Shown here: piece after piece, positions 1,016 to 16,358 of the stretch
Layout: every line of letters starts with the position of its first letter
Position numbering within the stretch: the first letter of the stretch is position 1
From: an uncultured Bacilli bacterium
GTDB lineage: Bacteria; Bacillota_I; Bacilli_A; RF39; UBA660
Direction of reading: 5' to 3'
Assembly (NCBI GenBank): GCA_947623935.1
Contig: CANQIE010000011.1
Span: 1 to 37,165 of the forward strand
Length of the DNA: 37,165 bases
Position numbers and translations under genes: made by a program
Notes under the pieces: model-generated
Told to the model about the DNA's origin: nothing
What the model saw: only the letters and a program-made list of their open reading frames with translations
The model's database searches: none

Positions 1016-2110
1016 TTATTTTATACGATATGGATCGTCTAGTGTACCTGTTCCAGATTTATATTGAACATTTTGTTGAAGGTAAATAACTGGACGTACA
1101 TCACCATAAGTAAAGGCATTAGCAGGAGTTGGAACTCCATTATTAACCATATAAACATGCGAACTAATTCTACTATTTGCAGTCAAAGTCCACCAACCAC
1201 GACTAAATATACGTGCTAAATAGTTGTAGTTTTGGCAAGTTTGGGCTCCTGGCTTACAAGTACTATCCAAACTTGCATTCATAACATCATACGCTGGAAT
1301 AAGTCCGATTACTTCATTTTCAAGTACCTTACTACATTCTGCACTACCATCTAATGAAGTGGTGTCGCTATTACGCATACCAATACAAATAGAATGAGAA
1401 CTGATTTGTTTCTTTTCTTTATCGGTAAAGTTATTGTTATAGAAATTGTTTACCGTAGTACGAATGCGGCTTTTCTCATAGTCGTTAATTCCTTCATTAC
1501 CATTGGTTTCGTTGTTATAACGATCATCCCAAACATAACGATCAAGTTCATCATCTTGTAATAAAAGCATAATATTTCCATCTTTATCAATTTTAATAAT
1601 ACGCCAATTAACGCCTGCAAAACGAAGAATATTTTGTGGTCTTTCTCCACGATATACATATTCGTTGTTTAATTCATATAAACCACTTTGATCTTGTGTT
1701 AAAACGCCTAATTGATCTTTAATATGACTAGTTAATAACTCCGTTTCATAAGCATCTCCACAACTAATGTAAGAAGTATAATAATATTCTCCTCTTACAT
1801 TTGTAACAGTTGCAGATCCATTACAAGAAGTGTTTTCATCTTTGGTCATATCTATAAATGATTTGATTAGTTCTTCCTGCACTAAAGTAGATGCATCCAC
1901 CGTTGCTTCTCCTCCATCTTCTTCTGGAAGTAATTCTTTATGAAGGGCATAATATCTTTGTCCAGCTTCAAGTAGTCTTTCTTCCATTTGACTATAAGAT
2001 AAACTGCGATTTTGTAATAAGAAGAAAACGGCAACAATGATAATTAATAAAACGATTCCCCCTACTACACTTCCTAAGATAATATACATTTTTTTCTTTT
2101 TAGAATCCAT
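1016..2110 (-). CDS. Membrane-anchored exoprotein with DUF6273-like domain
   Basis: The start is placed at the ATG at 2110 (364 residues). It has a GAGG ribosome binding site 8 nt upstream, whereas the longer ORF would run back over the preceding gene and its terminator. The protein has a short cytoplasmic KKKK tail, one transmembrane helix (about residues 9-31) and an extracellular part. That part starts with a YY...LP...C...YISCG module (about residues 40-130), also found in the 617-residue protein of the same locus. A DUF6273-like domain follows (WRIIK, WWTLT, VRPVIYL), ending in a GTGTxxDPY motif. Several Cys residues suggest disulfides. It has its own promoter immediately after the pilus operon terminator. 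The function is unknown, and a surface or minor pilus component is an inference. Confidence 0.8.
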   Translation of the reverse strand: MDSKKKKMYIILGSVVGGIVLLIIIVAVFFLLQNRSLSYSQMEERLLEAGQRYYALHKELLPEEDGGEATVDASTLVQEELIKSFIDMTKDENTSCNGSATVTNVRGEYYYTSYISCGDAYETELLTSHIKDQLGVLTQDQSGLYELNNEYVYRGERPQNILRFAGVNWRIIKIDKDGNIMLLLQDDELDRYVWDDRYNNETNGNEGINDYEKSRIRTTVNNFYNNNFTDKEKKQISSHSICIGMRNSDTTSLDGSAECSKVLENEVIGLIPAYDVMNASLDSTCKPGAQTCQNYNYLARIFSRGWWTLTANSRISSHVYMVNNGVPTPANAFTYGDVRPVIYLQQNVQYKSGTGTLDDPYRIK

Positions 2111-2134
2111 AAAACATGCCTCATTTCTTCTTTT

Positions 2135-2163
2135 ATTATAGCAAAAAAAAAATATGGTTACAA
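2135..2163 (-). promoter_or_regulatory. Sigma-A promoter of the DUF6273-like gene, overlapping a terminator
   Basis: The -35 TTGTAA (2158-2163) and -10 TATAAT (2135-2140, preceded by TGC) are separated by 17 bp on the minus strand. The -35 lies in the loop and descending stem of the terminator of the upstream gene. Confidence 0.7.
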
Positions 2164-2173
2164 TAACCATATT
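2143..2173 (-). terminator. Terminator of the Tad-like operon
   Basis: A perfect 10-bp stem (AATATGGTTA/TAACCATATT) with a 3-nt loop is followed by a run of Ts on the minus strand. It lies just after the 119-residue pilin candidate and closes the pilus operon. Confidence 0.9.
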
Positions 2174-2180
2174 GATTTTA

Positions 2181-2540
2181 TTAATCTCTACCAGCGTCTG
2201 TTGTATTTGTACCCATTGGGTTATTCCAACAATCACTCCAGTTACCAGTACCCTCAACACCTGTACCACTTGTTCCAAACATTCCCATTAGAAGTGAAAC
2301 AATAGTAGCAACGAAGAATACTGCAACAGCCGCAATAGCACGTTTAATTAATTTACCAGTTGCTGCTTTGATTTCCTTATCATCACTTGATAAAACAGCT
2401 TTTCCTAAATCGATAGATCCCATCACAATTAAGATAATTGGGATACCAATTTGAATAATTGGGAAAATACCATTTTTAACAAAAGCAACAATAGGACCAA
2501 TACCATTACAGTTATCTGCTAAAATTTGAAATAAATCCAT
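2181..2540 (-). CDS. Small two-span membrane protein, VirB2/TrbC-like pilin candidate
   Basis: A 119-residue protein with two hydrophobic helices (about residues 24-45 and 67-90) joined by a short charged loop (SSDDKEIK...GKLIKR), and a Gly/Thr/Asn-rich tail with a Cys. This is the architecture of VirB2/TrbC-type pilins, but the sequence match is only general. A GGGAGG ribosome binding site supports the start. The gene has its own TTGACA-N17-TATGAT promoter and is the last gene of the Tad-like operon, as expected for an abundant subunit. It lacks a type III (Flp/TadE) prepilin signal, so it would not be processed like Flp. It could instead be a small holin-like or channel protein. The pilin role is inferred. 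Confidence 0.75.
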   Translation of the reverse strand: MDLFQILADNCNGIGPIVAFVKNGIFPIIQIGIPIILIVMGSIDLGKAVLSSDDKEIKAATGKLIKRAIAAVAVFFVATIVSLLMGMFGTSGTGVEGTGNWSDCWNNPMGTNTTDAGRD

Positions 2541-2566
2541 TAAAATACCTCCCTTTGTATGAATTT

Positions 2567-2595
2567 ATCATACGTTTTTTTTATTTCTTTGTCAA
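2567..2595 (-). promoter_or_regulatory. Strong internal promoter for the VirB2-like gene
   Basis: TTGACA (2590-2595) and TATGAT (2567-2572) are separated by 17 bp on the minus strand. The -10 lies in a small palindrome (GTATGA-N5-TCATAC) that could act as an operator or a 5' hairpin. Confidence 0.75.
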
Positions 2596-2626
2596 TAACA
2601 ATTGACAACATTTGTCAATTGTTATT
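2594..2626. repeat. Perfect 13-bp inverted repeat between the TadZ-like and VirB2-like genes
   Basis: AATAACAATTGAC and its exact complement are separated by 7 nt. The repeat contains the stop codon of the TadZ-like gene and overlaps the -35 of the next promoter. On the minus strand it is followed by A-rich sequence rather than Ts. It is therefore not a classical terminator and could be an operator, an mRNA-end stabiliser or a processing site. Confidence 0.75.
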
Positions 2627-3647
2627 CATTATTTCCACGGAATAAGTTAAAGAGTCCTCCTGCATGACCTCCATCACTTTCGCTTGGAGTTTCCAAAAGT
2701 CCTAATTTAGCTAAAAAATCCGTTAAAATCGAATTTTTGATACGTTCATTAAGTGGGGGTAAATTATAAAAGAACTTTGCTTTAGATTCATATTCCAAAT
2801 CATTAATATCCGTTTGATTTAACATGCTTTGACAAAGAACAATCTTCTTTCCCCTCATTTTCTCAAAAATTCTACGATCCCTTTTCATCAATTTATTGAG
2901 TCTGATCGTCGAAGGCGAAAGCAAGTAAATAACATCGGTGCATGCTTCCTCTTGATTCGAGTCATTTAAATCTACCAAAATAATATTTTTATCTTGGTGC
3001 TTCATGACCTCAGTTGGAAATTGATCCGCATTCGATGAATACATGTCCTTTTCTTGAAAATATTGAAAATCTCTTTTATTTAATTCGATGGCTGCTACAC
3101 TTCGACCATGGGATTCAAGTGTTTGCTTTAACATGTAAATAAGTGTAGTAGCACCGGTATGATCGGTTAAATTTTTAACACCTAGGATAACGGTACTATT
3201 CATCATGATGATGGTATCTCCCCCACTCATGGTAGGAGATGTCATCATAGCAGGTTGAATTTGACCTAGTTGATGAATATGGGCTACATCACGATAACTA
3301 TTTGGGTGAGAATACAAATATTGAAGTCCTTCTAGATTGGTTGTGAAGTTATAAAATCCCATTGAAATAAGTTGCGATAAGAACCCATTCGATGTACTAT
3401 CCGGATCCGTCGGAGGCAATAATAAAATGATCTTATCAACTTCTAACGACATCGACAGTTTTTGGAAATTGGATAGATTTTTATAATCTTTAATTGCTGT
3501 AACATCGAGAATCATTTTTCCAAAATAGAAATTTTGAAACATGCTGATTAATTCATCAACATCAAATTGTCCATTAAGCGATTTAATGACATCGATATCG
3601 AGCCCAGCGACCACCGCCTGCTGTTCATTCGTTATAATTACGTTCAT
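2622..3647 (-). CDS. TadZ/CpaE-like MinD-family protein with degenerate P-loop
   Basis: A 341-residue protein that probably acts as a cytoplasmic localisation or assembly factor of the Tad-like machine. The N-terminal part (residues 1-130) resembles the atypical receiver-like domain of CpaE/TadZ. The second half looks like a ParA/MinD fold, beginning with a strand and the loop VKNLTDHTGATTL in place of the canonical KGGVGKTT. The catalytic Lys is absent, as described for some TadZ proteins. Further hydrophobic strands (NIILVDLND, KIVLCQS) fit the fold. It sits between the TadE-like and VirB2-like genes. The family call rests on fold pattern and context, not on a strong motif. Confidence 0.7.
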   Translation of the reverse strand: MNVIITNEQQAVVAGLDIDVIKSLNGQFDVDELISMFQNFYFGKMILDVTAIKDYKNLSNFQKLSMSLEVDKIILLLPPTDPDSTSNGFLSQLISMGFYNFTTNLEGLQYLYSHPNSYRDVAHIHQLGQIQPAMMTSPTMSGGDTIIMMNSTVILGVKNLTDHTGATTLIYMLKQTLESHGRSVAAIELNKRDFQYFQEKDMYSSNADQFPTEVMKHQDKNIILVDLNDSNQEEACTDVIYLLSPSTIRLNKLMKRDRRIFEKMRGKKIVLCQSMLNQTDINDLEYESKAKFFYNLPPLNERIKNSILTDFLAKLGLLETPSESDGGHAGGLFNLFRGNNE

Positions 3648-3665
3648 AAGATCACCCTTTTTATT

Positions 3666-4178
3666 CTAATAATTGGTTCCTCCGGAATTGTTTAACTCAC
3701 TATTCGTTCCCGAAGAATAGATTGTTTTTGTTTCACCACGTACGGCAAAGACACGCGATAAAGCAGGTAATAGTTTATCTAAAATCGGAAAACGAATTTG
3801 TACGAAAGTCTCTACCGCATAGTGAGACCCTACGTATTGTGCACCCATATTTTGCGTATTATGAGTTCCTTCGATAATTCTTTTTAAGCAATATCCGCCA
3901 TACTGTTTTTCATAGTCGGTATCGCACCTAAATTCATTCGTATTATATCCTACTTGGTTCAAATACGTTTGAATTTGATTACAAGCATTATCACCATTTA
4001 CACATCCACCGTATTGTCCACCAGTAAAACCTTCGTTCTTTTCGATAATACTAATAATTTCGTTTTTTACACGGAAAGCTTTGGTATAGTTAACGGTAAA
4101 CGCTAAATAAGCATTTACAATCAACAAAAAGATAATGATAATTTGGATGCTCATTGCTCCACCAATCGCTTCTCTCAT
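3666..4178 (-). CDS. TadE-like pseudopilin with extracellular Cys residues
   Basis: A 170-residue protein starting MREAIGGAMSIQ, then a hydrophobic helix (about residues 9-29). This resembles the TadE/TadF pseudopilin N-terminus with a possible prepilin cleavage site after Gly. The extracellular part contains four Cys (GGCVNGDNAC and RCDT...YCLKR), probably paired in disulfides. An upstream GGTGAT serves as ribosome binding site. It lies in the operon between the 61-residue pilin candidate and the TadZ-like gene, matching the usual place of TadE/F near the end of tad operons. The assignment is supported by context and N-terminal pattern, and the downstream domain is not recognised. Confidence 0.7.
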   Translation of the reverse strand: MREAIGGAMSIQIIIIFLLIVNAYLAFTVNYTKAFRVKNEIISIIEKNEGFTGGQYGGCVNGDNACNQIQTYLNQVGYNTNEFRCDTDYEKQYGGYCLKRIIEGTHNTQNMGAQYVGSHYAVETFVQIRFPILDKLLPALSRVFAVRGETKTIYSSGTNSELNNSGGTNY

Positions 4179-4203
4179 ACATTATCACCACTCTCTAATT
4201 ATT

Positions 4204-4389
4204 CTAATCAGATACGCATGAACCATCAGCATTTTGATGCATTCCAGTTGGGCAGTTACTAATTCCTTCCCATTGTGCATTAATCGTATTTTGGATTTGT
4301 GGCCATAAAATCCAGAAAAATGCAACAATAGCACCAATTGCAATAATGGTAACAACAGTCATATTTAACTCTCCTGTCGCCTCTTTCAT
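4204..4389 (-). CDS. 61-residue pilin-like peptide (Flp-like candidate)
   Basis: A very small protein starting MKEATGELN, with one helix (about residues 9-30) and a short tail holding two Cys (SNCPTGMHQNADGSC). The N-terminus echoes the neighbouring TadE-like protein (M-K/R-E-A-x-G), suggesting a shared processing or export signal. Its size suits a Flp-type major pilin, although the usual G-x4-E-Y motif is not exact. AAAGGAG provides a clear ribosome binding site, and a dedicated promoter lies 25-60 bp upstream. The high-expression architecture and position after tadC support a structural subunit role. That role is an inference. Confidence 0.75.
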   Translation of the reverse strand: MKEATGELNMTVVTIIAIGAIVAFFWILWPQIQNTINAQWEGISNCPTGMHQNADGSCVSD

Positions 4390-4414
4390 TATTTAACACT
4401 CCTTTCTATTATTA

Positions 4415-4443
4415 GTTATAGCACAATTTACTTTATTGTACAA
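4415..4443 (-). promoter_or_regulatory. Internal promoter before the 61-residue pilin candidate
   Basis: TTGTAC (4438-4443) and TATAAC (4415-4420, preceded by TGC) are separated by 17 bp on the minus strand, in the 80-bp gap after tadC. Confidence 0.6.
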
Positions 4444-4469
4444 CGGCTATTAACAATTACTTTACATTT

Positions 4470-5246
4470 TTAGAACATCATTAACATTGATACAAGAATA
4501 AGAACCATTACGCCTCCACCGGTAGCAACTAGCATGATCATGGTCTGTCCTTCCATGTGATTTAAACGTTCCTTATATTTTTGCTCTCTTGCTTTATTCT
4601 GAAGTGAAGAAACGGTTCTTGAGAACATGAGTAAACGTTCTTGTTTTTTCTCTTGTCCACCGATTCCTAAACGATAAAGAAGACGCATCATCCGCATGGA
4701 ATCACGTACAGGATAAGTATTTGCAAATTCCATGTATGGATCAATGCTAGAATCTCCTGCATCAATTCGATCAATCAATGTTCTAAGTCCTGGTTTAAAA
4801 ATTTCAGGTGCATCGGCAATCGATTTACCAAGGGCTACTGGAACCGTGTAATGCTGTACCAAAATTTCTAATCCCTTTAAATAGTATGGCAACATTATAT
4901 CAATATCATGCAAATGTGCCTTATAATATTTTTTTAATTGACTGTAGGAAGATTTAAAAACCAAATAGCCTACACCCAGTGATAATACAATTGTTAAAAG
5001 GTTTAAATCCGATAAGAAAATAAACAAGAAAATGGCTGCCGTTACAATTCCATATAAAATACGTTTGTTAAAAAGTTCTCTTGGATTTACTTGTTCTCCG
5101 TATCTTGCATATACTAAGAATTCGTAATCATCTTCTTTTAACATTTGGAAATATTGTTCATTATCTTTTATAAATTTTTTTCCATCAATCGTATTGTTAT
5201 ATAAAAGAACAAAGATAATAATCGCTGCTACTATTAGTATTTCCAT
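4470..5246 (-). CDS. tadC: TadC-like inner-membrane platform protein (GspF domain)
   Basis: A 258-residue protein with an N-terminal helix, a double-span region (about residues 66-100), a cytoplasmic helical T2SSF/GspF-type domain (about residues 110-220) and a C-terminal helix. It pairs with the preceding TadB-like gene, and its start codon overlaps that gene's stop (TAATG), indicating translational coupling. In Tad systems TadB and TadC form the membrane platform on which the TadA ATPase drives assembly. An AGGTG ribosome binding site supports the start. The order tadA-tadB-tadC makes the assignment firm. Confidence 0.85.
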   Translation of the reverse strand: MEILIVAAIIIFVLLYNNTIDGKKFIKDNEQYFQMLKEDDYEFLVYARYGEQVNPRELFNKRILYGIVTAAIFLFIFLSDLNLLTIVLSLGVGYLVFKSSYSQLKKYYKAHLHDIDIMLPYYLKGLEILVQHYTVPVALGKSIADAPEIFKPGLRTLIDRIDAGDSSIDPYMEFANTYPVRDSMRMMRLLYRLGIGGQEKKQERLLMFSRTVSSLQNKAREQKYKERLNHMEGQTMIMLVATGGGVMVLILVSMLMMF

Positions 5247-6139
5247 TATTCAGCACCTACATTCTCGTTATAATATTTTTCTCCTTTAAGAAGAAAATAA
5301 CTATTAAAAATTAATATGCCATGGAGTAATATTTTCATATACCACAAATCGAGTATTTTTAAATAGGTTTCATTCCCTAATAGGTACTGTACTAACATGA
5401 CCATTAGATAGAGCATCATACCATATTTTAAGAAGGATTTATGGAAAGTAGCCCGCTCCATGCGATCACGATAAACGCCTTCTACCAACATATCGATATC
5501 GAGCTGCATATTTTCTAAAGATTCTCCCGAGTCTTGTGCTCCTTCTTTAGTAATTTGTAAGAACAACTGATGCATGTTTTTAACAATATAGTAATGATAG
5601 ATGTTATCGAAATATTGAAGCGATTCATCAATGGAACCGTTCTCATAGGCTAGTTCAATCATGTGATTAACATCTCCCAAAACGGGATCTTCCAATACTC
5701 CACTTCCTGCTACTCCCTCCAAAGCTTTAACGAAGCTTTGGGTAGTAGCAAACTCCATAATGGTGTTGGTGGTATAAATTTGAATCTGCTCGAAAATAAA
5801 TTCACTATATACTCTTTTACAACGTAAGAAAGCAAGGTAGGGAATCGTAGCATCGACAACTATGATATAAACAATCGATATTACAATGTTATAGAAATAA
5901 AGATACGATACAATTCCTGCAAAAGCGGAGAACATGAGTACTTGCGTGAGGTATTGACGTGCCGTGTACTCTTGTCCTAACTCTTTGGTCTTCTCTCTTA
6001 CTAATTTAAAGGAATAAGGAGCGAATTTATCGTATACGAGACCTACTTGGTCGACGATAAAACGATAGACATTTTGTCCACGGTAATTACGATAGACGAT
6101 AACAAAGATAGCAATTAACAGTAAGACAAATAATTCCAT
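5246..6139 (-). CDS. tadB: TadB-like inner-membrane platform protein (GspF domain)
   Basis: A 297-residue membrane protein with an N-terminal helix, paired helices (about residues 65-105), a cytoplasmic GspF-like helical bundle (about residues 110-235; YTTNTIMEF, SGESLENM) and C-terminal helices (about residues 238-285). This is the TadB arrangement. It lies 14 bp after tadA and is translationally coupled to tadC. AAAGGAG serves as ribosome binding site. It would form the assembly platform with TadC. No unusual features were seen apart from the divergence typical of the locus. Confidence 0.85.
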   Translation of the reverse strand: MELFVLLLIAIFVIVYRNYRGQNVYRFIVDQVGLVYDKFAPYSFKLVREKTKELGQEYTARQYLTQVLMFSAFAGIVSYLYFYNIVISIVYIIVVDATIPYLAFLRCKRVYSEFIFEQIQIYTTNTIMEFATTQSFVKALEGVAGSGVLEDPVLGDVNHMIELAYENGSIDESLQYFDNIYHYYIVKNMHQLFLQITKEGAQDSGESLENMQLDIDMLVEGVYRDRMERATFHKSFLKYGMMLYLMVMLVQYLLGNETYLKILDLWYMKILLHGILIFNSYFLLKGEKYYNENVGAE

Positions 6140-6153
6140 GATTTATCACTCCT

Positions 6154-7338
6154 TTAAATTTCTTCTAATTCTTGAGCTTGTCCTCTTTGAACAGGCACTG
6201 TTTGAGTCGTTTTTGCTTCTACGAAAGAGACTCCTTTATTCTTGAGTTCCTCTTCTTTTCTTAATTTTTCCTCTTCTTCTTCCGTTAGGACATTTTCAAA
6301 TTTGGTATTTAGTTGAATGTTTTGTCCTTGCAAGTATTCCATTAAATGGCTACTTGGATTTCTTTTAATGACTTTTTCACCAATCTTTTGATAAAGGATG
6401 CGATGTTGTACTTCATTGTCATCATCGACATAGAATTCGCACACTTCATCAATTTCACGATGAAACTTTTGATATTTTTGACTATAGTACGCCTTGATGT
6501 GTACGCCTAACTGAATATATCGATAAATCGTTTTTAAGAATTGATCGACATCGACTTCCGTCTCCATAAGACTGTACATACGGAAAGGTATAGCACTTGC
6601 TTTATCGGAGTGAATCGTCGATAAAATATTGTGTCCTGAAGATATCGAGTTACGAACCGCACTTACGGCTTCGGCACTACGAACCTCAGATAGTAAAATC
6701 CATTTTGGGTTTTGTCGCATACATGTAACCAACACTTCACTATAGGAAGCAATGTTATTGGTCTTCATCGCCACAATATCCCTTTGAGGGAAAATACGAT
6801 CCAAGTGTAACTCTAATGTATCCTCAATCGTTATTAATTTTTCATTGGTCTTGGTATGAGCTGCTAAATATTTAACAAACTCGGTTTTACCAGAACCCGT
6901 TTCTCCACAAACAATGATATTGCAATGTCCTTCGACACATTTAATCAAAAAGTCGTGGATATCTTTGGTAACATAATCTTCTTTTAAAAGATTTTCTTCT
7001 TTCAACCTGATTTTAGCAGGTGTTTTACGTATAACTAACGCAACCCCATTCGTCGCAATTGAATCGTGTACAAAGTTAAGACGAAGTTCGGTACTCTCTG
7101 CATCTAGAAAGGGACTTGCCATATTGAAGGTTTTTCCCATGACGTTAGAACACTGAAAGGCAAGTTTTTCGACTAGTGCATTATTAATAGCTGGATTTTC
7201 TACTCGAACCGATCCTTGTGTTAAGGAGCGAATCCAAATCTGTCCACCATTATCATAAGAAATATCGGTTATATCGTCGTTGTCAATGTACGTTTGAAAG
7301 GGCCCAAAGTCTATTTGCTCAAATACATTATCATTCAT
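6154..7338 (-). CDS. tadA: TadA/CpaF-type secretion ATPase
   Basis: A 394-residue ATPase of the VirB11/GspE superfamily that powers pilus assembly or secretion. Walker A GETGSGKT is at residues 145-152, the Asp box TIEDTLELHL at about 170-179, Walker B ILLSEVRS with catalytic Glu at about 214-221, and the His box GHNILSTIH at 235-243. The N-terminal domain (residues 1-100) is shorter than in typical CpaF, and the C-terminal 50 residues are charged. An AAGGGGG ribosome binding site precedes the ATG. It follows cpaB and precedes tadB and tadC. All catalytic motifs are intact, so the motor is probably active. The short gene spacing indicates cotranscription. Confidence 0.92.
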   Translation of the reverse strand: MNDNVFEQIDFGPFQTYIDNDDITDISYDNGGQIWIRSLTQGSVRVENPAINNALVEKLAFQCSNVMGKTFNMASPFLDAESTELRLNFVHDSIATNGVALVIRKTPAKIRLKEENLLKEDYVTKDIHDFLIKCVEGHCNIIVCGETGSGKTEFVKYLAAHTKTNEKLITIEDTLELHLDRIFPQRDIVAMKTNNIASYSEVLVTCMRQNPKWILLSEVRSAEAVSAVRNSISSGHNILSTIHSDKASAIPFRMYSLMETEVDVDQFLKTIYRYIQLGVHIKAYYSQKYQKFHREIDEVCEFYVDDDNEVQHRILYQKIGEKVIKRNPSSHLMEYLQGQNIQLNTKFENVLTEEEEEKLRKEEELKNKGVSFVEAKTTQTVPVQRGQAQELEEI

Positions 7339-7353
7339 AGTGAGCCCCCTTTT

Positions 7354-8184
7354 CTATTGTATTGCACCACTACCTGACATATCTTCGGTCCAATAAGTTA
7401 CATTGTTAATCCAATCTCTTAATTCTTCACTACTGATGCGTACTTCACCTGGTTGTTCTTTTAAGGATTCTCTGGTTGGTACTGGTAAAAGTGTTGCATC
7501 ATACGTTCTTAGATACATCGTCTTTCTTAATAAGATATGATATTCTTCTGGAACGGCAAAGATCATCATCGCAGGTGTACGTTCTTCTTCAACATTATCG
7601 AAAACATTTTGTCCATTTCCATCAAGAACGGCTAAAACTTTTACATTTTCAATAAGTTTTCCAACCATAATGGTATCTTTTTGATTGGCTACATTTTCAT
7701 CTAAGTTATTGATGGCTTTTAAGTAGATATCAACATAGTTCCCAGGAATAATTTGGTTACCATAAGATAACGTCATATTCAAGGTCATATTGACAAGTAC
7801 ATAACCATCTGGATAATCTTCACGGATTAAAGAATCCGGTAAAGCCGATTTTTCTACGACCGCTCTTCTATAAAACAGGCTTCCTGCTGGAATCACAGAA
7901 TCGAAGTTACTATATTTGTTAACCACTTCACTTGCAGTTAGATAAATACTACTGTTTTGAACCATCGAACGAGGAATTTGCATCATACCAATCATATCCG
8001 ATGTGATTTGTGTCTTTGGATTAATGGTCACGGTAGCATAAGGTACTGAAATAGGCGTAATCGCTTGATTAACACGCATATTGTATCCAATATAAAGGAC
8101 TAATACGCCTAGAAGAACACCTACTACTGTAACGGTATTTCGATTTGATAAAAACTTTTTTATTCCTGTAATTAAGTTACTCAT
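7354..8184 (-). CDS. cpaB: CpaB/RcpC-like SAF-domain protein
   Basis: A 276-residue membrane-anchored protein with one N-terminal helix (about residues 17-36). A SAF domain follows (about 45-110: VPYATVTINPKTQITSDMI...IPRSMV), then the RcpC/CpaB beta-rich domain (about 120-240; GNYVDIYLKA). In diderms it stabilises the secretin. Here, in a monoderm, it would act between membrane and wall. It lies 15 bp upstream of tadA, and the start is supported by AAGGAAGGG. The family assignment rests on the SAF pattern and operon position. Confidence 0.85.
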   Translation of the reverse strand: MSNLITGIKKFLSNRNTVTVVGVLLGVLVLYIGYNMRVNQAITPISVPYATVTINPKTQITSDMIGMMQIPRSMVQNSSIYLTASEVVNKYSNFDSVIPAGSLFYRRAVVEKSALPDSLIREDYPDGYVLVNMTLNMTLSYGNQIIPGNYVDIYLKAINNLDENVANQKDTIMVGKLIENVKVLAVLDGNGQNVFDNVEEERTPAMMIFAVPEEYHILLRKTMYLRTYDATLLPVPTRESLKEQPGEVRISSEELRDWINNVTYWTEDMSGSGAIQ

Positions 8185-8201
8185 CTTTATCCCTTCCTTC
8201 C

Positions 8202-8642
8202 CTATTCTAGTTCATCTTGAATATCTTGTACTCTTCTGTCTTCTTCGTATTTGGTTTCAAGTATAGCATCGATTTGATTTTTAATTTGGAAACTTTCTCC
8301 TGCAAATACAACGGAAGTAGAAGATCCTACTTTAACACTCACTTTTGGAGGCGTCTCATTGATATCGTAAATACGAATGTCATAGTTACGATCATTATTA
8401 ACATTTTCAGCAAAGCGACGAACGAAACTTTCTACAAATTTTTCTTTGTCCATTCGAATTTCGCCACCCGATACTTGATAAAATCCATAATCGACAGCAT
8501 CGAGCATGGCTGCTTCCGTCGTATCCTTTAGTAAATAGTAATCCAGTTCGTTTCCTGAGGAGTAGTTTTGAATAATGTTGACCATTCCTAGGGTAAAAAC
8601 ACCTAGCAAAATGATTCCGGTTAATAAAATACCTTTACTCAT
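8202..8642 (-). CDS. Small single-span envelope protein of the Tad-like locus
   Basis: A 146-residue protein with an N-terminal helix (about residues 5-24) and an extracytoplasmic domain of about 120 residues rich in charged residues. The region after the helix (NELDYYLLKDTTEAAMLDAVDY) resembles the N-terminal alpha region of TadE/TadG-type pseudopilins (hydrophobic helix, then a helical segment with DAVD), but I do not recognise the family. Its start overlaps the stop of the 973-residue gene, so the two are translationally coupled. GAGGAGG serves as ribosome binding site. A minor pseudopilin role is an inference. Confidence 0.75.
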   Translation of the reverse strand: MSKGILLTGIILLGVFTLGMVNIIQNYSSGNELDYYLLKDTTEAAMLDAVDYGFYQVSGGEIRMDKEKFVESFVRRFAENVNNDRNYDIRIYDINETPPKVSVKVGSSTSVVFAGESFQIKNQIDAILETKYEEDRRVQDIQDELE

Positions 8643-11563
8643 TATTGATTTCCTCCTCTCATATCAACGTATTTACGTTCACATACATTTCCTTTTTGAT
8701 TGTTACATCCCACCATGCCTCGTTTTTTCAATTCCATATAGTAACTACTCGTTCCATTTAAATCGTAATCACTATTGGCTCCACCATTTAGGAACTTACT
8801 TTGACATACATTGATTCCTAATTTAGTATCATTATAACAATACATATCATAATCTAAGTATTCACCATTATGTTCACGATTGTATTGACGAATTGCATTG
8901 ATGTTTTGTTTGGTTAAGACAATTTCGTAATCAAGTTCATCAGATGGATCATTTTCTTGATTACTTGTTTCATAAATCGTGTTCCCCTTTTGAATGATTT
9001 CTAATCTCGTTTCATCTGGCATGATGTTATAACGTAAGCTATTTGCTGACGTCGTCCAGTTCCATCTTGGGTTACGTCCAATTTCTTGTTGTTCTTCTAA
9101 GAATGGTTGATTTAAGTTAATAGGACGATAAATATAACTTAATCCACAAGTATTGATACAGTTTTGTTCATTTGGTCCACAAGCGGTACATCCTGGATCT
9201 AAGTAAATACCCGTATTATCTTTAATTCCATAAAAGCAATGTAAATCAATGTTGGACCATTGTCCCCAAGAGCCAAGATTAGCAAAATTGAAATAAATAT
9301 TTTGAGAAATCCCTTGCTCTTCAAAATCTCCATTGATAAGAGCATCTTTATTATCCCAACCAATTACACTAGGCCAACGTTCCAATAAATTTACGCCTTT
9401 TGCATTGATATTGGTGTAGAATTTATTTCCTCCATCGTAATAATATTTAGCCAAATCTGGATTGCCAACAAATTGTTTTTTACCATATCGAATATCTCCT
9501 ACATCAACTTGTGATACATAAGCTTGGTCTAGATTTAAAGTGTATTCTCTTTCTGATGTATATTTAGTAATCGTAAATGATCTAGATTTACCTCCACTTG
9601 ATCCACCAATAGTATAAGAATAAGAGCCTGCTTCTTCTAAACTATACTCTAAGTTATTATTTTCAGGATAAGTCTTTTTATCTACTTTCACTTCTTTATC
9701 CGTAGCGTTCTTATAGGTAATTACATTTTGAGTATGTGAATCAACAATAGCGGCTGTAAAGACTTCTTTTCCAATAGATCCTCCAGTATATTGTTTAATG
9801 GCTTCTTGTACTTTCAAATATTCATTATAACTGTCATCAACTTCTTTATTATAATCTGCCACCGGGTCCATTGAACAATCAGGTCCACTAACCCTAACTT
9901 CATAACATGCAGTTCCATTGCAGCCAGTTATATAGCTAAAGTCAACGCCATGATCAGTAACACAAATCTCATTCTCGCAAGTCCAAGTAATAACGTTACA
10001 AGAGGTTATAGGGTTCCCTTTAGGAGTAGTACCACAGTTTTCACTCAAATAAGTTTTAGCAGAAACATTGCCTAAAATGGTTGTATTGTTTTTGTCTAGA
10101 TAAGTAGTCGTACGATATAAATCTATACTTATATTATTAGCGCTAGAAATAGCGTCAGAATTTATTTGATTTTGATAAATAGAAGCATAGCATTGATCGA
10201 TACAACTCTGCGAATAAGCTCCGTTATCACAAGAAGCTACACAGCGATCAAATAATTCATTTGGTCCTGCACATGGCTCTCCGCTGTGATCAAATGGTCC
10301 TCCATAGCATTCTACTCCATATTTACATAGAGAAAGCATTTTTGGTCTTTTTCGTTCAACCGGTTCGCAAGTACGGGTCATTGTAATAACTGGTGTATAA
10401 CTGAATCCTTCTCCAGCTCTTAAGGCTTTTGGTTCCTCATAAGTAATAACCAATTTTTCCGTACATCGAGCACCCCAATAGGAACCTCCAACACCTTCCA
10501 GAAAATGTGTATATTCTTGTGCAGATTCATGATAACTAGATCCTTCTTTAGTATTTATATTAGAGTTGTACTCATCACCAAAGTAACACTGTAGACTATC
10601 TGTTACAGGGGTTTTAGAGGATAGACCATCAATAAGTTTTCCAGCCCTATCAATATCTTCTTGTATAACAGCATCTGTATAATCTTTAATCAATGAATAG
10701 TCTATTTTTTCGTCAAAGCATTCATTGACATATTGTTCAGCAATACTTTTATTAACATTATTTTTAATAGAACTGGCAAAATCAGAGCATATTTTTCTTT
10801 CACGAATTGGATTAGGTACCCATGAACTAGCAACTCCTGTAATATAACCTACATAGGCACCGTCACATGGATTATCAGAACCACCATCAAAATAAAAAGC
10901 TACAGCATACTGAGCACCAGGATTTGCATAAAAAGAGAATGTTCCGTTACTTCCTGAAAGCCAATGATTATCTTCTACTTTCAGCCCATAAGAAGTGCAC
11001 TCATTTCCTTGGTAACTTAAACATACTTCTGAATAGATCATATTTCCCTTGCTTGATTTTTCTCCATTAGCAAGCCCAACACGATATCCTTTGGCATCTG
11101 TAATAGTGATTTTCCATTGGTTAAGTTTAGGATCCCAATTCTGATGAAAATGTTCTTGCGAATTTAAGTCATCGACCGAAACCAAATTATCAAAATCGTG
11201 TTTCAAAGGACATATTGCAGAAAGATACTCACTTGCTCCTATTGCACCAGAAGTAATTATACAACTTTTTCCCATAGCATTTTTTTTAAATTGCGTTGAT
11301 CCTGTTTGACAAGAGTTTGTCGAACGATCAAATAAACAATTATTTTCAAGGTCGATTGAGGTAACCGAGGCAGGGTTAACATCTTCTCCTATATCGTATA
11401 GTTGATACATACTTCCTGATACACAAATGATCTTATCACTTTCCGTACTGTAAAATATTTGTCCTGAATCATCCTTTGTTTCACCTAAAACATTAAACGG
11501 AAAGACTAAAACTAATAGAAAAAAAAGTAACAGGATATGCGAATATTTTGTTATTTTATTCAT
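8642..11563 (-). CDS. Large Cys-rich secreted protein of the Tad-like locus
   Basis: A 973-residue exported protein with a Sec signal peptide (about residues 1-27, hydrophobic LLLFFLLVLVFPF, probable cleavage after VLG). I count about 36 Cys residues across the mature part, many in closely spaced pairs (for example CVASCDNG, CTACGPNEQNC), pointing to extensive disulfides. Asn/Tyr/Gly-rich segments suggest a beta-rich surface protein. No LPxTG or NPxTx sorting motif, C-terminal helix or known adhesin repeat was found. It lies between sortase B and the small envelope protein, with AGGAGG before the start. It could be the tip adhesin or an exported effector of the machine. Both roles are inferences from position, size and Cys content. 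Confidence 0.85.
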   Translation of the reverse strand: MNKITKYSHILLLFFLLVLVFPFNVLGETKDDSGQIFYSTESDKIICVSGSMYQLYDIGEDVNPASVTSIDLENNCLFDRSTNSCQTGSTQFKKNAMGKSCIITSGAIGASEYLSAICPLKHDFDNLVSVDDLNSQEHFHQNWDPKLNQWKITITDAKGYRVGLANGEKSSKGNMIYSEVCLSYQGNECTSYGLKVEDNHWLSGSNGTFSFYANPGAQYAVAFYFDGGSDNPCDGAYVGYITGVASSWVPNPIRERKICSDFASSIKNNVNKSIAEQYVNECFDEKIDYSLIKDYTDAVIQEDIDRAGKLIDGLSSKTPVTDSLQCYFGDEYNSNINTKEGSSYHESAQEYTHFLEGVGGSYWGARCTEKLVITYEEPKALRAGEGFSYTPVITMTRTCEPVERKRPKMLSLCKYGVECYGGPFDHSGEPCAGPNELFDRCVASCDNGAYSQSCIDQCYASIYQNQINSDAISSANNISIDLYRTTTYLDKNNTTILGNVSAKTYLSENCGTTPKGNPITSCNVITWTCENEICVTDHGVDFSYITGCNGTACYEVRVSGPDCSMDPVADYNKEVDDSYNEYLKVQEAIKQYTGGSIGKEVFTAAIVDSHTQNVITYKNATDKEVKVDKKTYPENNNLEYSLEEAGSYSYTIGGSSGGKSRSFTITKYTSEREYTLNLDQAYVSQVDVGDIRYGKKQFVGNPDLAKYYYDGGNKFYTNINAKGVNLLERWPSVIGWDNKDALINGDFEEQGISQNIYFNFANLGSWGQWSNIDLHCFYGIKDNTGIYLDPGCTACGPNEQNCINTCGLSYIYRPINLNQPFLEEQQEIGRNPRWNWTTSANSLRYNIMPDETRLEIIQKGNTIYETSNQENDPSDELDYEIVLTKQNINAIRQYNREHNGEYLDYDMYCYNDTKLGINVCQSKFLNGGANSDYDLNGTSSYYMELKKRGMVGCNNQKGNVCERKYVDMRGGNQ

Positions 11564-11580
11564 TATAGAGACCTCCTATC

Positions 11581-12330
11581 TTACTTGATTATATCATAGT
11601 TTGCTGTTTTTTCAACCTTGTAACCATCAATTTTTTCATTTTCGCGTATCTTTCGTGCATCCACTCTAAATTGTTTTTTACCGTTTAAACCAAAAAACCT
11701 CGTGCATGTAATTAAGGAAAGTAATTCATCGTTTTCATCAACCGATACACTATAGTTATACAAACTGTTTTCCTTAGCGTTTCTAATGTATTCTAAAGTT
11801 TCGCTAGAAGACTCAGTAACTTTTCCTTTTTCTTCATCTCCTACAAACCCTATTGCATAAATAAGATAAATATCATCTTGATTATCATGTGAATATTGTA
11901 TATATAAATTATTTTTAGCAAAGTCTTCATAAACAAATGACATTAAGGATTCAAAGCGTATTAAAGAATCATCGTTTATTAATGGTTGATTTGATATATT
12001 TCTGATATTGTGTCCATATATTACTAAACGATTTTCCCCTTCGGCAGGGCGATGTTCTACCCAAGTATAGTCGGTATCACCTTTCATAGCCTGCCATGAT
12101 TCATAAATAACTGGATAGTCAATATTGGTTCCTTGAACACGAATCCATCCAACAGCTGGAGCATTTTCCACCATAGTATTTTTTATTTGTGAAGAGCGAG
12201 GCTCTATATTAAAAGGAGTAAAAGAAACTTCTTTTTTTCCAAACGTTCCCCAAATCATCATGAAAACTAGAATAGCAGCAAAAACAACAAGTGCGTAACC
12301 ATAAATTTTAAAATTATTTTTTTTCTTCAT
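11581..12330 (-). CDS. srtB: Class B sortase
   Basis: Membrane-bound Cys transpeptidase of 249 residues. The start is placed at the ATG at 12330, which has AGAGGTG just upstream; the longer ORF start at 12357 has no ribosome binding site. An N-terminal anchor helix (about residues 10-28) is followed by the sortase fold. Catalytic residues are His107 (VIYGHN), Cys209 (LLSLITC) and Arg222 (KQFRVD). Sortase B enzymes attach or polymerise surface proteins with NPxTx-like signals, but no such substrate was found in the window. It sits between the 617-residue and the 973-residue exoprotein genes, so its target may be in the pilus locus or elsewhere. Confidence 0.92.
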   Translation of the reverse strand: MKKKNNFKIYGYALVVFAAILVFMMIWGTFGKKEVSFTPFNIEPRSSQIKNTMVENAPAVGWIRVQGTNIDYPVIYESWQAMKGDTDYTWVEHRPAEGENRLVIYGHNIRNISNQPLINDDSLIRFESLMSFVYEDFAKNNLYIQYSHDNQDDIYLIYAIGFVGDEEKGKVTESSSETLEYIRNAKENSLYNYSVSVDENDELLSLITCTRFFGLNGKKQFRVDARKIRENEKIDGYKVEKTANYDIIK

Positions 12331-12372
12331 TTTTTCACCTCTTATTAGAAAATACACTTTTTTAATACATTT

Positions 12373-14226
12373 TTATTGTTTTATAAAATAAGGATCCCAA
12401 AAAGTTCCTTTTCCCCCTGCCAAACGTGCATCCTTATTTATAAAAGCAACTATCTTAAAAGAATTCAAAGGAAAAATCTCTCCTAGTACATTGAAGGTAT
12501 GTCCATTGGTTGTATTTGTCATTAAGAAATAACCGTTTTGATTTACAACATCCATCAAATAATAATTAGTTCCTATCAGCATATTATTACTATTGACCCC
12601 TGAAAACAAATCATAACTATTAGGAATAGCAAAAGTAGCATGGAAAGTATCGGTAGTACATTCATTATATTTCTTAGTATCATCAAAGTAAGAACGGGTA
12701 AATTCATGTTCTATCAAAAGATCATCATTTAAATAATTTCCAATTTCATAATTTAATTTGTAACCAAGATTACCTTCTTTCGTAGGATCAAACAGCAAGA
12801 TTTCATCCATCTTATCATAGCCTGCTTTTAACTCTAACGCAGTAGTACTATTTTTAATTGTTCCTGCACTGATGACCTTAATGTTTTTCTCTTCATCAAA
12901 ACCGATGATTCGGAAGTATTGTCCAGAGTAATTAAGATATTCCCCAATATAGCGATCCGATAATTTATCATTATCTTTTCCGTAAGTATAATCGTTTAAT
13001 TTATAAGGATCACTTGCTGTACCGTTGCCATCAATAACAAAACTGTTTTCTGTCTTTAGGTTAATTACCGGTCTAACTCCCCCTAGTTCTTGATTATCAC
13101 GCATAATAACACGTTCCTTTGATGAAGGATAAAATAAATATCCACTCTCTTCATTTTTATGATCTAATAGCCAGAAAGAAGTGTTAACACTAAAATAAGT
13201 TCTATTATTTGAATCATAGGTATCTAAAAATTCTTTGACAGAGAGTAAGCCAACAGGTAAACCATTAGAATAAGTTTCGCATGTCTGATTTATTTTAGAA
13301 AGATTCTCCAGTGGGGATTCACACCATGTACTTTGCTGACTAATGTACGTATCTGCATTATGAAGCAAAGAATAAAAATAATCATTTAGCCAATGAGCAA
13401 TATTTGATTGTTCAAAACTTTCTCCATCTTGACGGTATATTAAATTAGCAGCATTATCATCTAAAATCAATTTTAGTGTTCCATCTTCATTAACTTTGAC
13501 AATTCGCCAAAGCATTCCGGAAAAAAGAAGATAATTAGAAGCATTGGCTCCTTTATAGATATTGGATGAGTCCGTTTGAGCAATCACTTCATCTTTGATA
13601 TTACGAATAACTTGAACTTCTCTTGTTACATCGCTTCGATTATGCATTTTATCATAAGCAGTATAACGAACAGTATAAGAACCTATTTTTTTAGTATTAA
13701 CATTCGAAGTATCACTGAGAACTTCTTCTACCGGTAATTCTTGGTCAACATCGTCAAAAACTTTTTCTATTCCAGGGTCTTGATATTCACCTCCCACCGT
13801 TACATAATAAGGATTATCTCCATTCAAGGTAATTGTAGGTCCCTCATGATCCACGTTAGATTGATATTTTCCACAGGATAAGTAAGTGTAGTAACGATAC
13901 TCTTCTCCTTCTTTAAATACCCTCACCCATGAATCAAGTGAACAAATGTCATTTTCTTTAGGAATCATTAACTTCTCGATCCGTTCTAAATCGTTTAATT
14001 CCTTTAAAGTAACCGAGGTCATTTCGCCTTCCTTTTTAGGAAGTCTCGAGGGATACTGAAAGTAGTAATATTCAGCCGCTTCTTGGAACTTCTTTTCTTC
14101 TTGTCTAAAAAGGAAATATCCTTCAACAAAAAGAGTATAAACCAAATACAAAAGAAGAAGACTTGCACCTAAAATGGCTAGAATTAAAGCTAATCTTTTT
14201 TTCTTTTTAACTTCCACTGGTTGCAT
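12373..14226 (-). CDS. Membrane-anchored Ig-like / DUF6273-like surface protein
   Basis: A 617-residue protein. The second ATG (14226) is chosen because AAGGAGG lies 8 nt before it but only 2 nt before the first. One helix (about residues 11-35) anchors an extracellular part. This begins with the YYY...LP...C...YLSCG module shared with the 364-residue DUF6273-like protein. Next comes a DUF5011-like Ig domain (PTITLNGDNPYYVTVGGEYQDPG...KIGSYTVRYTAYD, about residues 130-210). Two DUF6273-like units follow (WRIVKV...GVRPVINL; FRIIGF...FKIVAFI), each ending in GxGTxxDPY. It overlaps the upstream gene by 20 bp. It is probably a wall-spanning structural or adhesive protein, and the exact role is unknown. 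Confidence 0.82.
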   Translation of the reverse strand: MQPVEVKKKKRLALILAILGASLLLLYLVYTLFVEGYFLFRQEEKKFQEAAEYYYFQYPSRLPKKEGEMTSVTLKELNDLERIEKLMIPKENDICSLDSWVRVFKEGEEYRYYTYLSCGKYQSNVDHEGPTITLNGDNPYYVTVGGEYQDPGIEKVFDDVDQELPVEEVLSDTSNVNTKKIGSYTVRYTAYDKMHNRSDVTREVQVIRNIKDEVIAQTDSSNIYKGANASNYLLFSGMLWRIVKVNEDGTLKLILDDNAANLIYRQDGESFEQSNIAHWLNDYFYSLLHNADTYISQQSTWCESPLENLSKINQTCETYSNGLPVGLLSVKEFLDTYDSNNRTYFSVNTSFWLLDHKNEESGYLFYPSSKERVIMRDNQELGGVRPVINLKTENSFVIDGNGTASDPYKLNDYTYGKDNDKLSDRYIGEYLNYSGQYFRIIGFDEEKNIKVISAGTIKNSTTALELKAGYDKMDEILLFDPTKEGNLGYKLNYEIGNYLNDDLLIEHEFTRSYFDDTKKYNECTTDTFHATFAIPNSYDLFSGVNSNNMLIGTNYYLMDVVNQNGYFLMTNTTNGHTFNVLGEIFPLNSFKIVAFINKDARLAGGKGTFWDPYFIKQ

Positions 14227-15805
14227 TTTCATTTCCTCCTTTTAAATAATATTCATACGTTCTATCACGAACAACAAACTTAAACGCCACATCGGTTGCA
14301 TTCATAACTTCTTTAGGTACTAACAAGTAAACGTATTTCCCTTTCCAATCCCTCGATAGCGGTAAAGAAAGGGTTGCTTCTTTTTGTACCTGATCGATGG
14401 TATACCTAAGTTTTGCTTGTTTTGCTAAGAAACCGCTTAAGGCTAACCCTGTTGTATCTTCACTAAAATTAAGTCGTAAGATGCTTTTATTTCCGCTATA
14501 GTTTGAAGCCTTCATTTTACCCTCATAAACTTTGCAATCCCATACATAACAGCTGGTGTATAAGTAAGGAGTTTCTTCCATTACTTGATAATTGTAAAAA
14601 GCAAGCGTTTTTTTAGTCGTATCGTAGAACTCTAAATCCATCGATGTATTGAGGTAAGCTAAAGAGGTTTCAGTAGAAGAAGAAAGATCCGTTAAATCAG
14701 TATGAATAAGGCGAAGTTTTAAATCATTTGATCCTCTTATCTCTTGATAGTAAAGCGTATACTTAGAACCAAAATCGATGGGTTTTATTTCATAGATTAA
14801 CAACATGGAATTGGTAACACCTGGAGCAAGAGTTTGATTTTGATAGCCTTTTCCTAAATCCGTAAAATATTGGTCATGACTTTGAATAGGTACATAGTAA
14901 TTATGGTTTGCTGTAATGATAAATTTTTTAGTATCCATTGTAAGATTTTGATTGGTTATATTTTTTACAGATAAATCGAGAATAATGTATTTTCTTCCTT
15001 CTTGATTAATCACATTTCCCGCATAGTCCTTATTGGTAAGATACATTTTATTAATCTTTAATTCATAAGAATTGGCACGAAAAGTTTGTCCCATCTTATA
15101 AGTTCTATTCTCCACAAAAATCTGTTGGTATAGAAAGTAACTCCCCCCTAAGAAAAGAACTGAGACAATCGTAAGGCAAATACCTTGATGTTCTTGAATA
15201 ACGTATTTGACTCGACGGAACCGGTTTTTAACTATTCTTTTAACTTGATAAGGGTCCAGTCCTACCGACACTTCGACTTCTTCTCTATCTTCTTCATTAA
15301 TATCTAAGTACTCTTCGTCTTCTCTAAATCCAAACTTTTTTAAATCGAGTCCTAAGAAACGAATCAGCAAAATTACTAAAATCGCATATTGTGGAATACT
15401 CACAATAAACAAGAAATCTCGTATTAGTAATGTTTGTTGTAAATTAATTGCATCGAATCCAATATGGTCAAAATAAGATCCTGCATAAATAAACGTGATC
15501 ATTACAAGGAAATATTCTAATAAGATAAGTCCATAGACCACGACTGGTTTCTTTTTATAATAAAGTAAGAAAATTAAAATAAGACAAATGGCGAAAATGG
15601 CTACAATACAAGCAAAAAACAAAAAAGAAGTATATTCAGACATCGGAGTAGCAATCGGGTTATAGTATTTTGTATCCAAATAATTCCTTACCATATCTTG
15701 GAAGGCTAAATTTCGAAAAAGCACATAAGTAGAAAGAAGGAATAGAAGAAAATTGATTTTTTGGAAATGCTTTATTAGAAAAGCATAGGGTTTTCTAAAA
15801 ATCAT
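14207..15805 (-). CDS. Multi-span membrane protein with DUF4352-like domain
   Basis: A 532-residue protein and the first gene of the Tad-like operon. Four hydrophobic helices lie in the first 155 residues, followed by a charged cytoplasmic loop with acidic residues (about 160-195). A fifth helix (about 207-228) leads to an extracellular beta domain resembling DUF4352 (GQTFRANSYELKINKM...KYIILDLSVKN, about 240-330). A further beta-rich domain extends to the C-terminus. AGGAGG lies 10 nt before the start. The overlap with the next gene implies coupled translation. The function is unknown; it may be a membrane scaffold or sensor of the machine. No enzyme motif is visible. Confidence 0.82.
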   Translation of the reverse strand: MIFRKPYAFLIKHFQKINFLLFLLSTYVLFRNLAFQDMVRNYLDTKYYNPIATPMSEYTSFLFFACIVAIFAICLILIFLLYYKKKPVVVYGLILLEYFLVMITFIYAGSYFDHIGFDAINLQQTLLIRDFLFIVSIPQYAILVILLIRFLGLDLKKFGFREDEEYLDINEEDREEVEVSVGLDPYQVKRIVKNRFRRVKYVIQEHQGICLTIVSVLFLGGSYFLYQQIFVENRTYKMGQTFRANSYELKINKMYLTNKDYAGNVINQEGRKYIILDLSVKNITNQNLTMDTKKFIITANHNYYVPIQSHDQYFTDLGKGYQNQTLAPGVTNSMLLIYEIKPIDFGSKYTLYYQEIRGSNDLKLRLIHTDLTDLSSSTETSLAYLNTSMDLEFYDTTKKTLAFYNYQVMEETPYLYTSCYVWDCKVYEGKMKASNYSGNKSILRLNFSEDTTGLALSGFLAKQAKLRYTIDQVQKEATLSLPLSRDWKGKYVYLLVPKEVMNATDVAFKFVVRDRTYEYYLKGGNENATSGS

Positions 15806-15941: not shown

Positions 15942-16358
15942 ATGAAAAAGATATTTGCTTGTATTACGATACTTCTTGCAAGTCTTTGTCTTACCGGATG
16001 TGGTGGAAGTAAATACATTCAAGAAATAGACTTAAAAACATTGAATGAAAAAGTAGAAAATAAGGAGTCTTTTGTGTTAGAAGTCATGCGTACTTCTTGC
16101 TCCGCTTGTCAAGATTTTGCTCCCAAATTAGAAGAGGTTACTTCGAATTATGAAGTAACGGTTTACCAAATTAATACGGAGCATCTTTCCGAAGAAGATT
16201 TTAATGCTTTTAAAGACGCTTATAGTGTAAGTTCTACTCCTACTATTGTCTTCTTTACGGAAGGACAAGAATTGACGGTAGGTACCCGTATTGTTGGAAG
16301 TGTTAGCAAAGACAAACTTATTTCACAATTAAAATTCATGGGTTATATCCAAGAATAA
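15942..16358 (+). CDS. Thioredoxin-like lipoprotein
   Basis: A 138-residue lipoprotein with lipobox LTGC (Cys20) and a thioredoxin fold. The redox motif CSAC is at residues 53-56 and the cis-Pro loop STPTIVFF is near residue 100. The fold is anchored on the outer face of the membrane and would act as a thiol-disulfide oxidase, reductase or isomerase. It is transcribed divergently from the Tad-like operon, whose products are unusually Cys-rich. A role in their disulfide formation or repair is therefore plausible but inferred. A strong promoter, a good ribosome binding site and a terminator make it a single-gene unit. Confidence 0.85.
   Translation: MKKIFACITILLASLCLTGCGGSKYIQEIDLKTLNEKVENKESFVLEVMRTSCSACQDFAPKLEEVTSNYEVTVYQINTEHLSEEDFNAFKDAYSVSSTPTIVFFTEGQELTVGTRIVGSVSKDKLISQLKFMGYIQE

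Follow-up and report, generated by a model that had tools for sequence, protein, structure and literature searches.

A predicted secretion-related operon of Roseburia, Ruminococcus and Eubacterium, published by Miller et al. (2022, PMC9523054), encodes CpaF, PilC/GspF and DUF5411 together with a remotely internalin-B-like protein, and that paper is the only one in the literature that we searched to mention DUF5411. The locus described here is located in a stretch of 37,165 nucleotides (the window; contig CANQIE010000011.1 of assembly GCA_947623935.1) from an uncultured Bacilli bacterium (RF39; UBA660), and has in common with the published operon a CpaF ATPase, a putative PilC/GspF-type membrane protein, DUF5411, a large surface protein and an origin in gut Firmicutes. 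The two are set apart by description: the published operon is from Clostridia, with a surface protein that is remotely internalin-B-like and with neither a sortase nor VirB4 in the paper's text, whereas the present locus is from Bacilli and combines a sortase and a cysteine-rich protein of no known domain with a collinear half of a type IV secretion system (T4SS). This is a surface protein associated with pilus and T4SS genes in an already predicted machine, and a new protein family. With Tad/Flp pili, the locus shares a CpaF-type ATPase, a CpaB-like protein and TadB/C/E-like positions, but no Flp pilin is recognised in the window, the gene order runs into VirB/VirD4-type genes, and the cysteine-rich protein and the sortase are extra.

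In the streptococcal FCT pilus region, the sortase, the pilins and the tip adhesin are variable alleles, and the LPXTG pilins are polymerised by the sortase. That region also has a variable block of surface protein and sortase between conserved flanks; the present locus, however, has a Tad-type motor and no sorting signal, and its breakpoint falls in the surface-protein gene, sparing the C-terminal domain. The T4SS operon of the Bacillus subtilis plasmid pLS20 encodes an adhesin, TIE, which lacks a sorting signal and on which efficient mating depends, especially in liquid (PMC8092201). Like the window protein, TIE and PrgB of pCF10 are large exported proteins encoded in a Gram-positive T4SS operon, and TIE also resembles it in having no sorting signal. 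TIE carries thioester and Cna-type domains and PrgB a lectin-like domain with LPXTG, whereas none of these was found in the window protein, and the locus here is a Tad/T4SS hybrid without plasmid context.

The operon and the hybrid machine

The sequence-only reading of this DNA had described an exported 973-residue protein with about 36 cysteines, encoded between sortase B and motor genes. The open reading frame stands exactly as drawn (8642 to 11563): it starts with ATG behind a strong ribosome-binding site, TAGGAGGTCTCTATAATG, and encodes 973 residues, of which 36 (3.7%) are cysteine, with a signal-peptide-like N-terminus and no hydrophobic segment elsewhere. The sortase gene (11581 to 12357) lies on one side and those for DUF5411, CpaB and CpaF (8642 to 6154) on the other, and the stop codon of the cysteine-rich gene overlaps the start of the DUF5411 gene in the sequence TAATG. 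The features of the region are as follows, with the genes from the DUF4352 to the VirB2-like protein in order of transcription.

14207 to 15805, minus strand: DUF4352-domain membrane protein, first gene of the operon (PF11611, E 1.5e-8)
12373 to 14232, minus strand: bacterial surface Ig-like domain protein, N-terminally anchored (PF16403, E 4.3e-16); codons beyond ~120 are in the apparently exchanged block
11581 to 12357, minus strand: class-B-like sortase, apparently exchanged along with the head (TIGR03064, E 6.6e-13, below cut-off)
8642 to 11563, minus strand: cysteine-rich exported protein, 973 residues, 36 Cys; variable head at residues ~30-765, constant C-terminal domain at ~770-973
8642 to 9268, minus strand: constant C-terminal part of that protein (~residues 766-973), mostly at least 90% identical in a close relative
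8202 to 8642, minus strand: DUF5411 protein, pseudopilin-like, one N-terminal hydrophobic segment (PF17424, E 1.5e-51)
7354 to 8184, minus strand: CpaB/RcpC-like protein (TIGR03177, E 4.6e-9, and PF16976, E 3.1e-6, both below the curated cut-off)
6154 to 7338, minus strand: CpaF/VirB11-type (TadA-type) motor ATPase (PF00437, E 1.9e-26)
5246 to 6139, minus strand: membrane protein in the TadB position, named from position and topology (no Pfam match)
4470 to 5246, minus strand: membrane protein in the TadC position, a putative name (no Pfam match above cut-off)
3666 to 4178, minus strand: TadE-like pseudopilin candidate (no Pfam match)
2622 to 3647, minus strand: gene in the CpaE position, labelled from position only
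2181 to 2540, minus strand: small membrane protein like the T4SS pilin VirB2 (PF18895, E 1.8e-4, below cut-off)
1016 to 2278, minus strand: DUF6273 protein (PF19789, E 7e-9); the true start is probably the downstream ATG of MDSKKKK
15942 to 16358, plus strand, divergent from the operon: thioredoxin-like lipoprotein, CSAC (PF00085, E 1.1e-11)

No Pfam model for the TadB, TadC, TadE or CpaE families matched the genes named from position, T2SSF was absent at E<=1, and no member of the Flp family was found among the scanned proteins of the locus. Against TIGR03064 the sortase scores 48.5 bits (curated cut-off, 153.75), and among 75 homologues its catalytic residues H116 and C218 are invariant and R235 is 93% conserved. 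The Ig-domain protein and the protein at 1016-2278 show weak, DUF6273-like similarity to each other around the motifs FRIIGF/WRIIKI.

On a long contig of a relative, L192, which continues locus L024, the locus runs on into genes for TrbL-like, TcpE-like, VirB4, SpoIID and VirD4 proteins (2122-12367). The genome under study has the same T4SS genes in collinear order on a separate contig (C21, locus L217), with VirB4 82% and VirD4 73% identical to those of L192; its VirD4 matches PF02534 (E 1.4e-59), and the VirB4 of L192 matches AAA_10 (E 2.8e-12). The two halves are joined in L192/L024, and part of the T4SS half is on the contig of the Tad half in two further genomes, G001 and G002 (L016, L017). 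Our survey demonstrated that VirD4 is present in 56 of 59 family genomes, while a relaxase (PF03432) exceeded its cut-off in 10 of 59 relatives and was absent from the genome under study, and that no plasmid record encodes a relative of the cysteine-rich protein. An origin as a mobile element is rejected on the lack of a plasmid match and of a PF03432 relaxase in this genome. The machine is a hybrid of Tad and T4SS parts, conserved family-wide and probably non-conjugative in most members. This hybrid, the status of the protein as a family-wide component, and the head and sortase as an apparently exchangeable allelic block all go beyond the sequence-only reading.

A conserved slot for a cysteine-rich protein

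Nearly all the genomes that we compared are metagenome assemblies. A profile of the cysteine-rich protein matched in 64 of 193 genomes of the same family, and scanning GTDB genomes yielded ~100 relatives, 80 of which we kept; these are proteins of 840-1130 residues with 25-50 Cys, and their hosts are nearly all uncultured gut Bacilli, including Candidatus Onthousia and Candidatus Scybalousia. Gene order strongly supports the proposed link to the pilus genes: in the window and 80 loci a sortase gene is directly upstream of 75 of 84 family genes and a DUF5411 gene directly downstream of 70 of 84, with the exceptions mostly at contig ends. Outside the family, there were three weak matches within the class, all to the N-terminal segment only. 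Across a phylum-wide sample, DUF5411 itself exceeded its cut-off in this family alone, and it is present in 120 of the 146 family genomes with at least 90% completeness. A genome of the same genus (G003, 94% complete) has neither the cysteine-rich protein nor DUF5411, and thus the system can be lost.

The slot extends beyond the reach of this profile. In 17 of 20 sampled profile-poor DUF5411 loci, an exported protein of 914-1522 residues with 25-60 Cys is encoded directly upstream, and a cysteine-rich exported protein takes that place in most loci of an initial set that was chosen less randomly. When a profile of 16 of these divergent slot proteins was aligned to the window family with hhalign, only the C-terminal domain aligned (residues 673-942, 99.1%, E 1e-18); the slot is therefore defined by a constant C-terminal domain, with the remainder variable.

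Median cysteine content is 3.45% across 76 relatives, versus medians of 0-0.76% for the exported or membrane proteins encoded nearby (DUF4352, Ig-domain, SrtB, CpaB and DUF5411); the cysteine richness exceeds chance. Conservation of the cysteines among homologues, a check that the sequence-only reading had itself proposed, also came out in its favour. In an alignment of 69 sequences, cysteine is far better conserved than any other residue type (mean identity 61%, with tyrosine second at 31%), and 12 cysteine columns are invariant in 69 of 69 (C326, 367, 399, 419, 441, 445, 454, 458, 548, 553, 563 and 776), with four more conserved in at least 91% (C101, 259, 282 and 413). In about half of the loci, the operon is flanked by the gene for the CSAC thioredoxin-like lipoprotein. 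Only two other genes of the thioredoxin family were found in the genome under study, which gave no match to thiol machinery of the DsbD/CcdA type; this lipoprotein is a candidate disulfide helper.

Searches for a known domain gave no match at E<=1 in Pfam or NCBIfam with the 973-residue protein and nothing in PDB sequence searches, and searching with a 69-sequence profile gave nothing either. Structure prediction and fold search were likewise run: the AlphaFold2 model of the full protein, built from 69 homologues, is of moderate confidence (pLDDT 71, pTM 0.62), and Foldseek found no match for it at E<=0.001 among PDB and viral models. The top Foldseek row, IsdB (E 0.0067, prob 0.20, TM 0.06), is not meaningful. 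A model of the C-terminal domain alone (82 sequences, pLDDT 68, pTM 0.44) had no fold match either. Sequence and fold comparisons thus place the protein in no known secreted family, and the earlier statement that it has neither a known adhesin domain nor a sorting signal stands. The last 60 residues lack a hydrophobic segment in all 76 relatives, and on these grounds we reject a C-terminal LPXTG/NPxTN sorting signal for the cysteine-rich protein.

We also sought the thioester-domain motifs [YFL]C(hydrophobic)(hydrophilic) and TQxx(hydrophobic)W, after PMC6194298. A thioester domain is rejected for the window protein, with the motif in 0 of 120 close-type sequences, the window's included. Three divergent slot proteins (L184:4997-8224, L205:1302-4301 and L180:5751-8303) have thioester-adhesin-like motifs near the N-terminus, of the form FCIEPG...AQMYIW and similar, i.e., C-I-E/D ... 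A-Q-x-x-I/V-W, and the strict pattern occurs in 2 of 40 divergent slot proteins, against 0.1 expected in shuffles.

Apparent exchange of the head with its neighbours

We compared the window with a close relative, genome G002 (L017/L057). The motor genes of the two are 97-99% identical in amino acids, with differences at 0.18-0.25 of 4-fold degenerate sites, and the flanking DUF5411 (97%, 4-fold 0.25) and DUF4352 (94%, 4-fold 0.38) genes are similar. Between them, the sortase is 58% identical (4-fold 0.67) and the cysteine-rich head 43% (30-65% per 100 residues, 4-fold mostly 0.5-0.8), versus 94-96% (4-fold 0.05-0.30) for residues 801-973 of the tail. The Ig gene, which is 67% identical overall, divides in the same manner, with codons 1-100 at 93% and those beyond codon 200 at ~50-64% (4-fold 0.5-0.77). 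Both junctions lie inside single contigs and inside genes. Synonymous divergence that is high in the block and low in the tail would not arise from rapid amino-acid substitution alone, but would follow from replacement of the block by recombination. Judged from these alignments, the head, the sortase and most of the Ig gene look to be an allelic cassette with one breakpoint within the cysteine-rich gene, from few events, one clear and one weaker; in the second pair (L095 versus L104/L110) the amino-acid pattern is alike and the synonymous contrast is weaker and mosaic.

The same linkage appears across 57 loci, where distances between heads correlate with those of the Ig-domain protein (IgDUF, partial r 0.64) and SrtB (0.52) once TadB, CpaB, DUF5411 and DUF4352 distances are removed. 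This indicates that the head, the Ig gene and the sortase are inherited together, which does not in itself prove a physical interaction. Cassette behaviour of this kind was not found in the literature that we searched. Second copies of the Ig-gene, sortase and cysteine-protein cassette, with no motor genes next to them, are present in L086, L116, L082 (1193-4348) and contigs C26 and C30 of genome G008, and the extra cassette on C26 includes DUF4352, with no motor seen on the contig.

Proposed function and variant loci

Our preferred reading, to which we would give an even chance, is that the cysteine-rich protein is a surface-exposed, adhesin-like recognition subunit of the Tad/T4SS hybrid machine. 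It is favoured since the protein is exported and cysteine-rich, occurs once per machine, and has a constant, putative docking end and an exchangeable head. In this model, in which disulfide formation, docking, adhesion and the sortase substrate are inferred, the protein would be exported by Sec and folded by many disulfides, perhaps with the help of the neighbouring thioredoxin-like lipoprotein. The constant C-terminal domain would hold it on the machine or on a wall-spanning part, beside the pseudopilin-like DUF5411, and the N-terminal three quarters would form a hypervariable, disulfide-stapled head that touches the target (another microbe, a host surface or mucus). The head, the sortase and most of the Ig gene would be inherited and replaced as one block, and because they share an allelic block the most likely role of the sortase is to act on the head or in concert with it. 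The thioester-like motifs of the three divergent relatives and the pLS20 adhesin support an adhesin by analogy. Counting against it, the window protein gave no match to an adhesin fold or domain, the thioester-like motif is missing from all 120 close-type sequences, the sortase is not explained by any sorting signal, the second case of replacement is weaker, and the genomes are metagenome assemblies. Where the sequence-only reading had suggested a tip or effector protein, the tip is compatible with a constant C-terminal domain and an exchangeable head.

We consider it rather unlikely that the protein is instead a structural part, i.e., a scaffold that spans the wall or forms the filament base, with disulfides for rigidity and with a head that varies under phage or immune pressure and not through target binding. 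The near one-to-one occurrence with DUF5411, the translational coupling of the two genes and the constant C-terminal domain would all suit a scaffold, but the head is much more variable than the motor parts, and the extra head-sortase cassettes (L086, L116 and the first copy in L082) lack adjacent motor genes.

An effector or toxin delivered by the hybrid machine into neighbouring cells is a decidedly less probable reading. VirD4 in nearly all family genomes (56/59), set beside a relaxase in 10/59 and none in this genome, hints at traffic in protein and not DNA, and the protein is large and variable. The Sec-type N-terminus and the conserved cysteines, however, imply residence outside the cell; no toxin domain is present, no immunity-like partner gene was recognised in the fixed operon, and it is rare for effectors to hold a single invariant slot in each machine. 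For the effector half of the earlier suggestion we have no positive evidence. If a conjugation system has been domesticated here, the protein could serve as its mating-pair adhesin between conspecific cells, as TIE of pLS20 or PrgB does. This would fit the VirB4, VirD4, TrbL-like and SpoIID genes of this genome and their collinearity in relatives; it is quite improbable, given that a relaxase is rarely detected, that the locus belongs to the core of the family and that no plasmid record encodes a relative. An ordinary secreted enzyme or binding protein whose place in the operon is incidental would be consistent with a signal peptide and no known domain, but is very improbable, as the slot is conserved across many genera of the family and there is no match to a catalytic family or fold.

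In the adhesin-like reading, a broader picture may be drawn, which we offer as a possibility on the doubtful side: that in genome-reduced gut Bacilli a Tad motor and a relaxase-less T4SS have fused into a core contact machine, whose partner would be set by an exchangeable cassette of disulfide-stapled head, dedicated sortase and Ig-domain protein, the sortase acting on a substrate that lacks any classical sorting signal. Uncultured gut bacteria with small genomes probably rely on others for nutrients, and a near-universal contact machine with an exchangeable, cysteine-rich recognition head would be a candidate means by which they choose a partner or surface. The exchangeable head would then serve as a sequence marker of strain-level specificity, and the proteins would be a large exported cysteine-rich family in low-GC Firmicutes, a group with few such proteins.

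Loci without an adjacent sortase (L172-L211; for example, L180:8315-8989 and L184:4329-4982) have in its place a membrane protein of 210-290 residues with 4-7 Cys, an N-terminal hydrophobic segment and a C-terminal membrane segment. This replacement is usual in divergent loci, and the one such protein tested had no Pfam match. DUF5411 proteins from sortase-bearing loci (8202-8642 in the window; L056-L135) have ~9-30 extra C-terminal residues, often ending in LDYSDVDK, in which we recognised no conserved sortase motif, and those from sortase-less loci (L172-L189) mostly end in ILETPY or ILETKY. In three loci (L099:10526-12349, L077:8703-10517 and L191:4295-7816), long C-terminal extensions are fused to DUF5411, giving proteins of 604-1173 residues in total.
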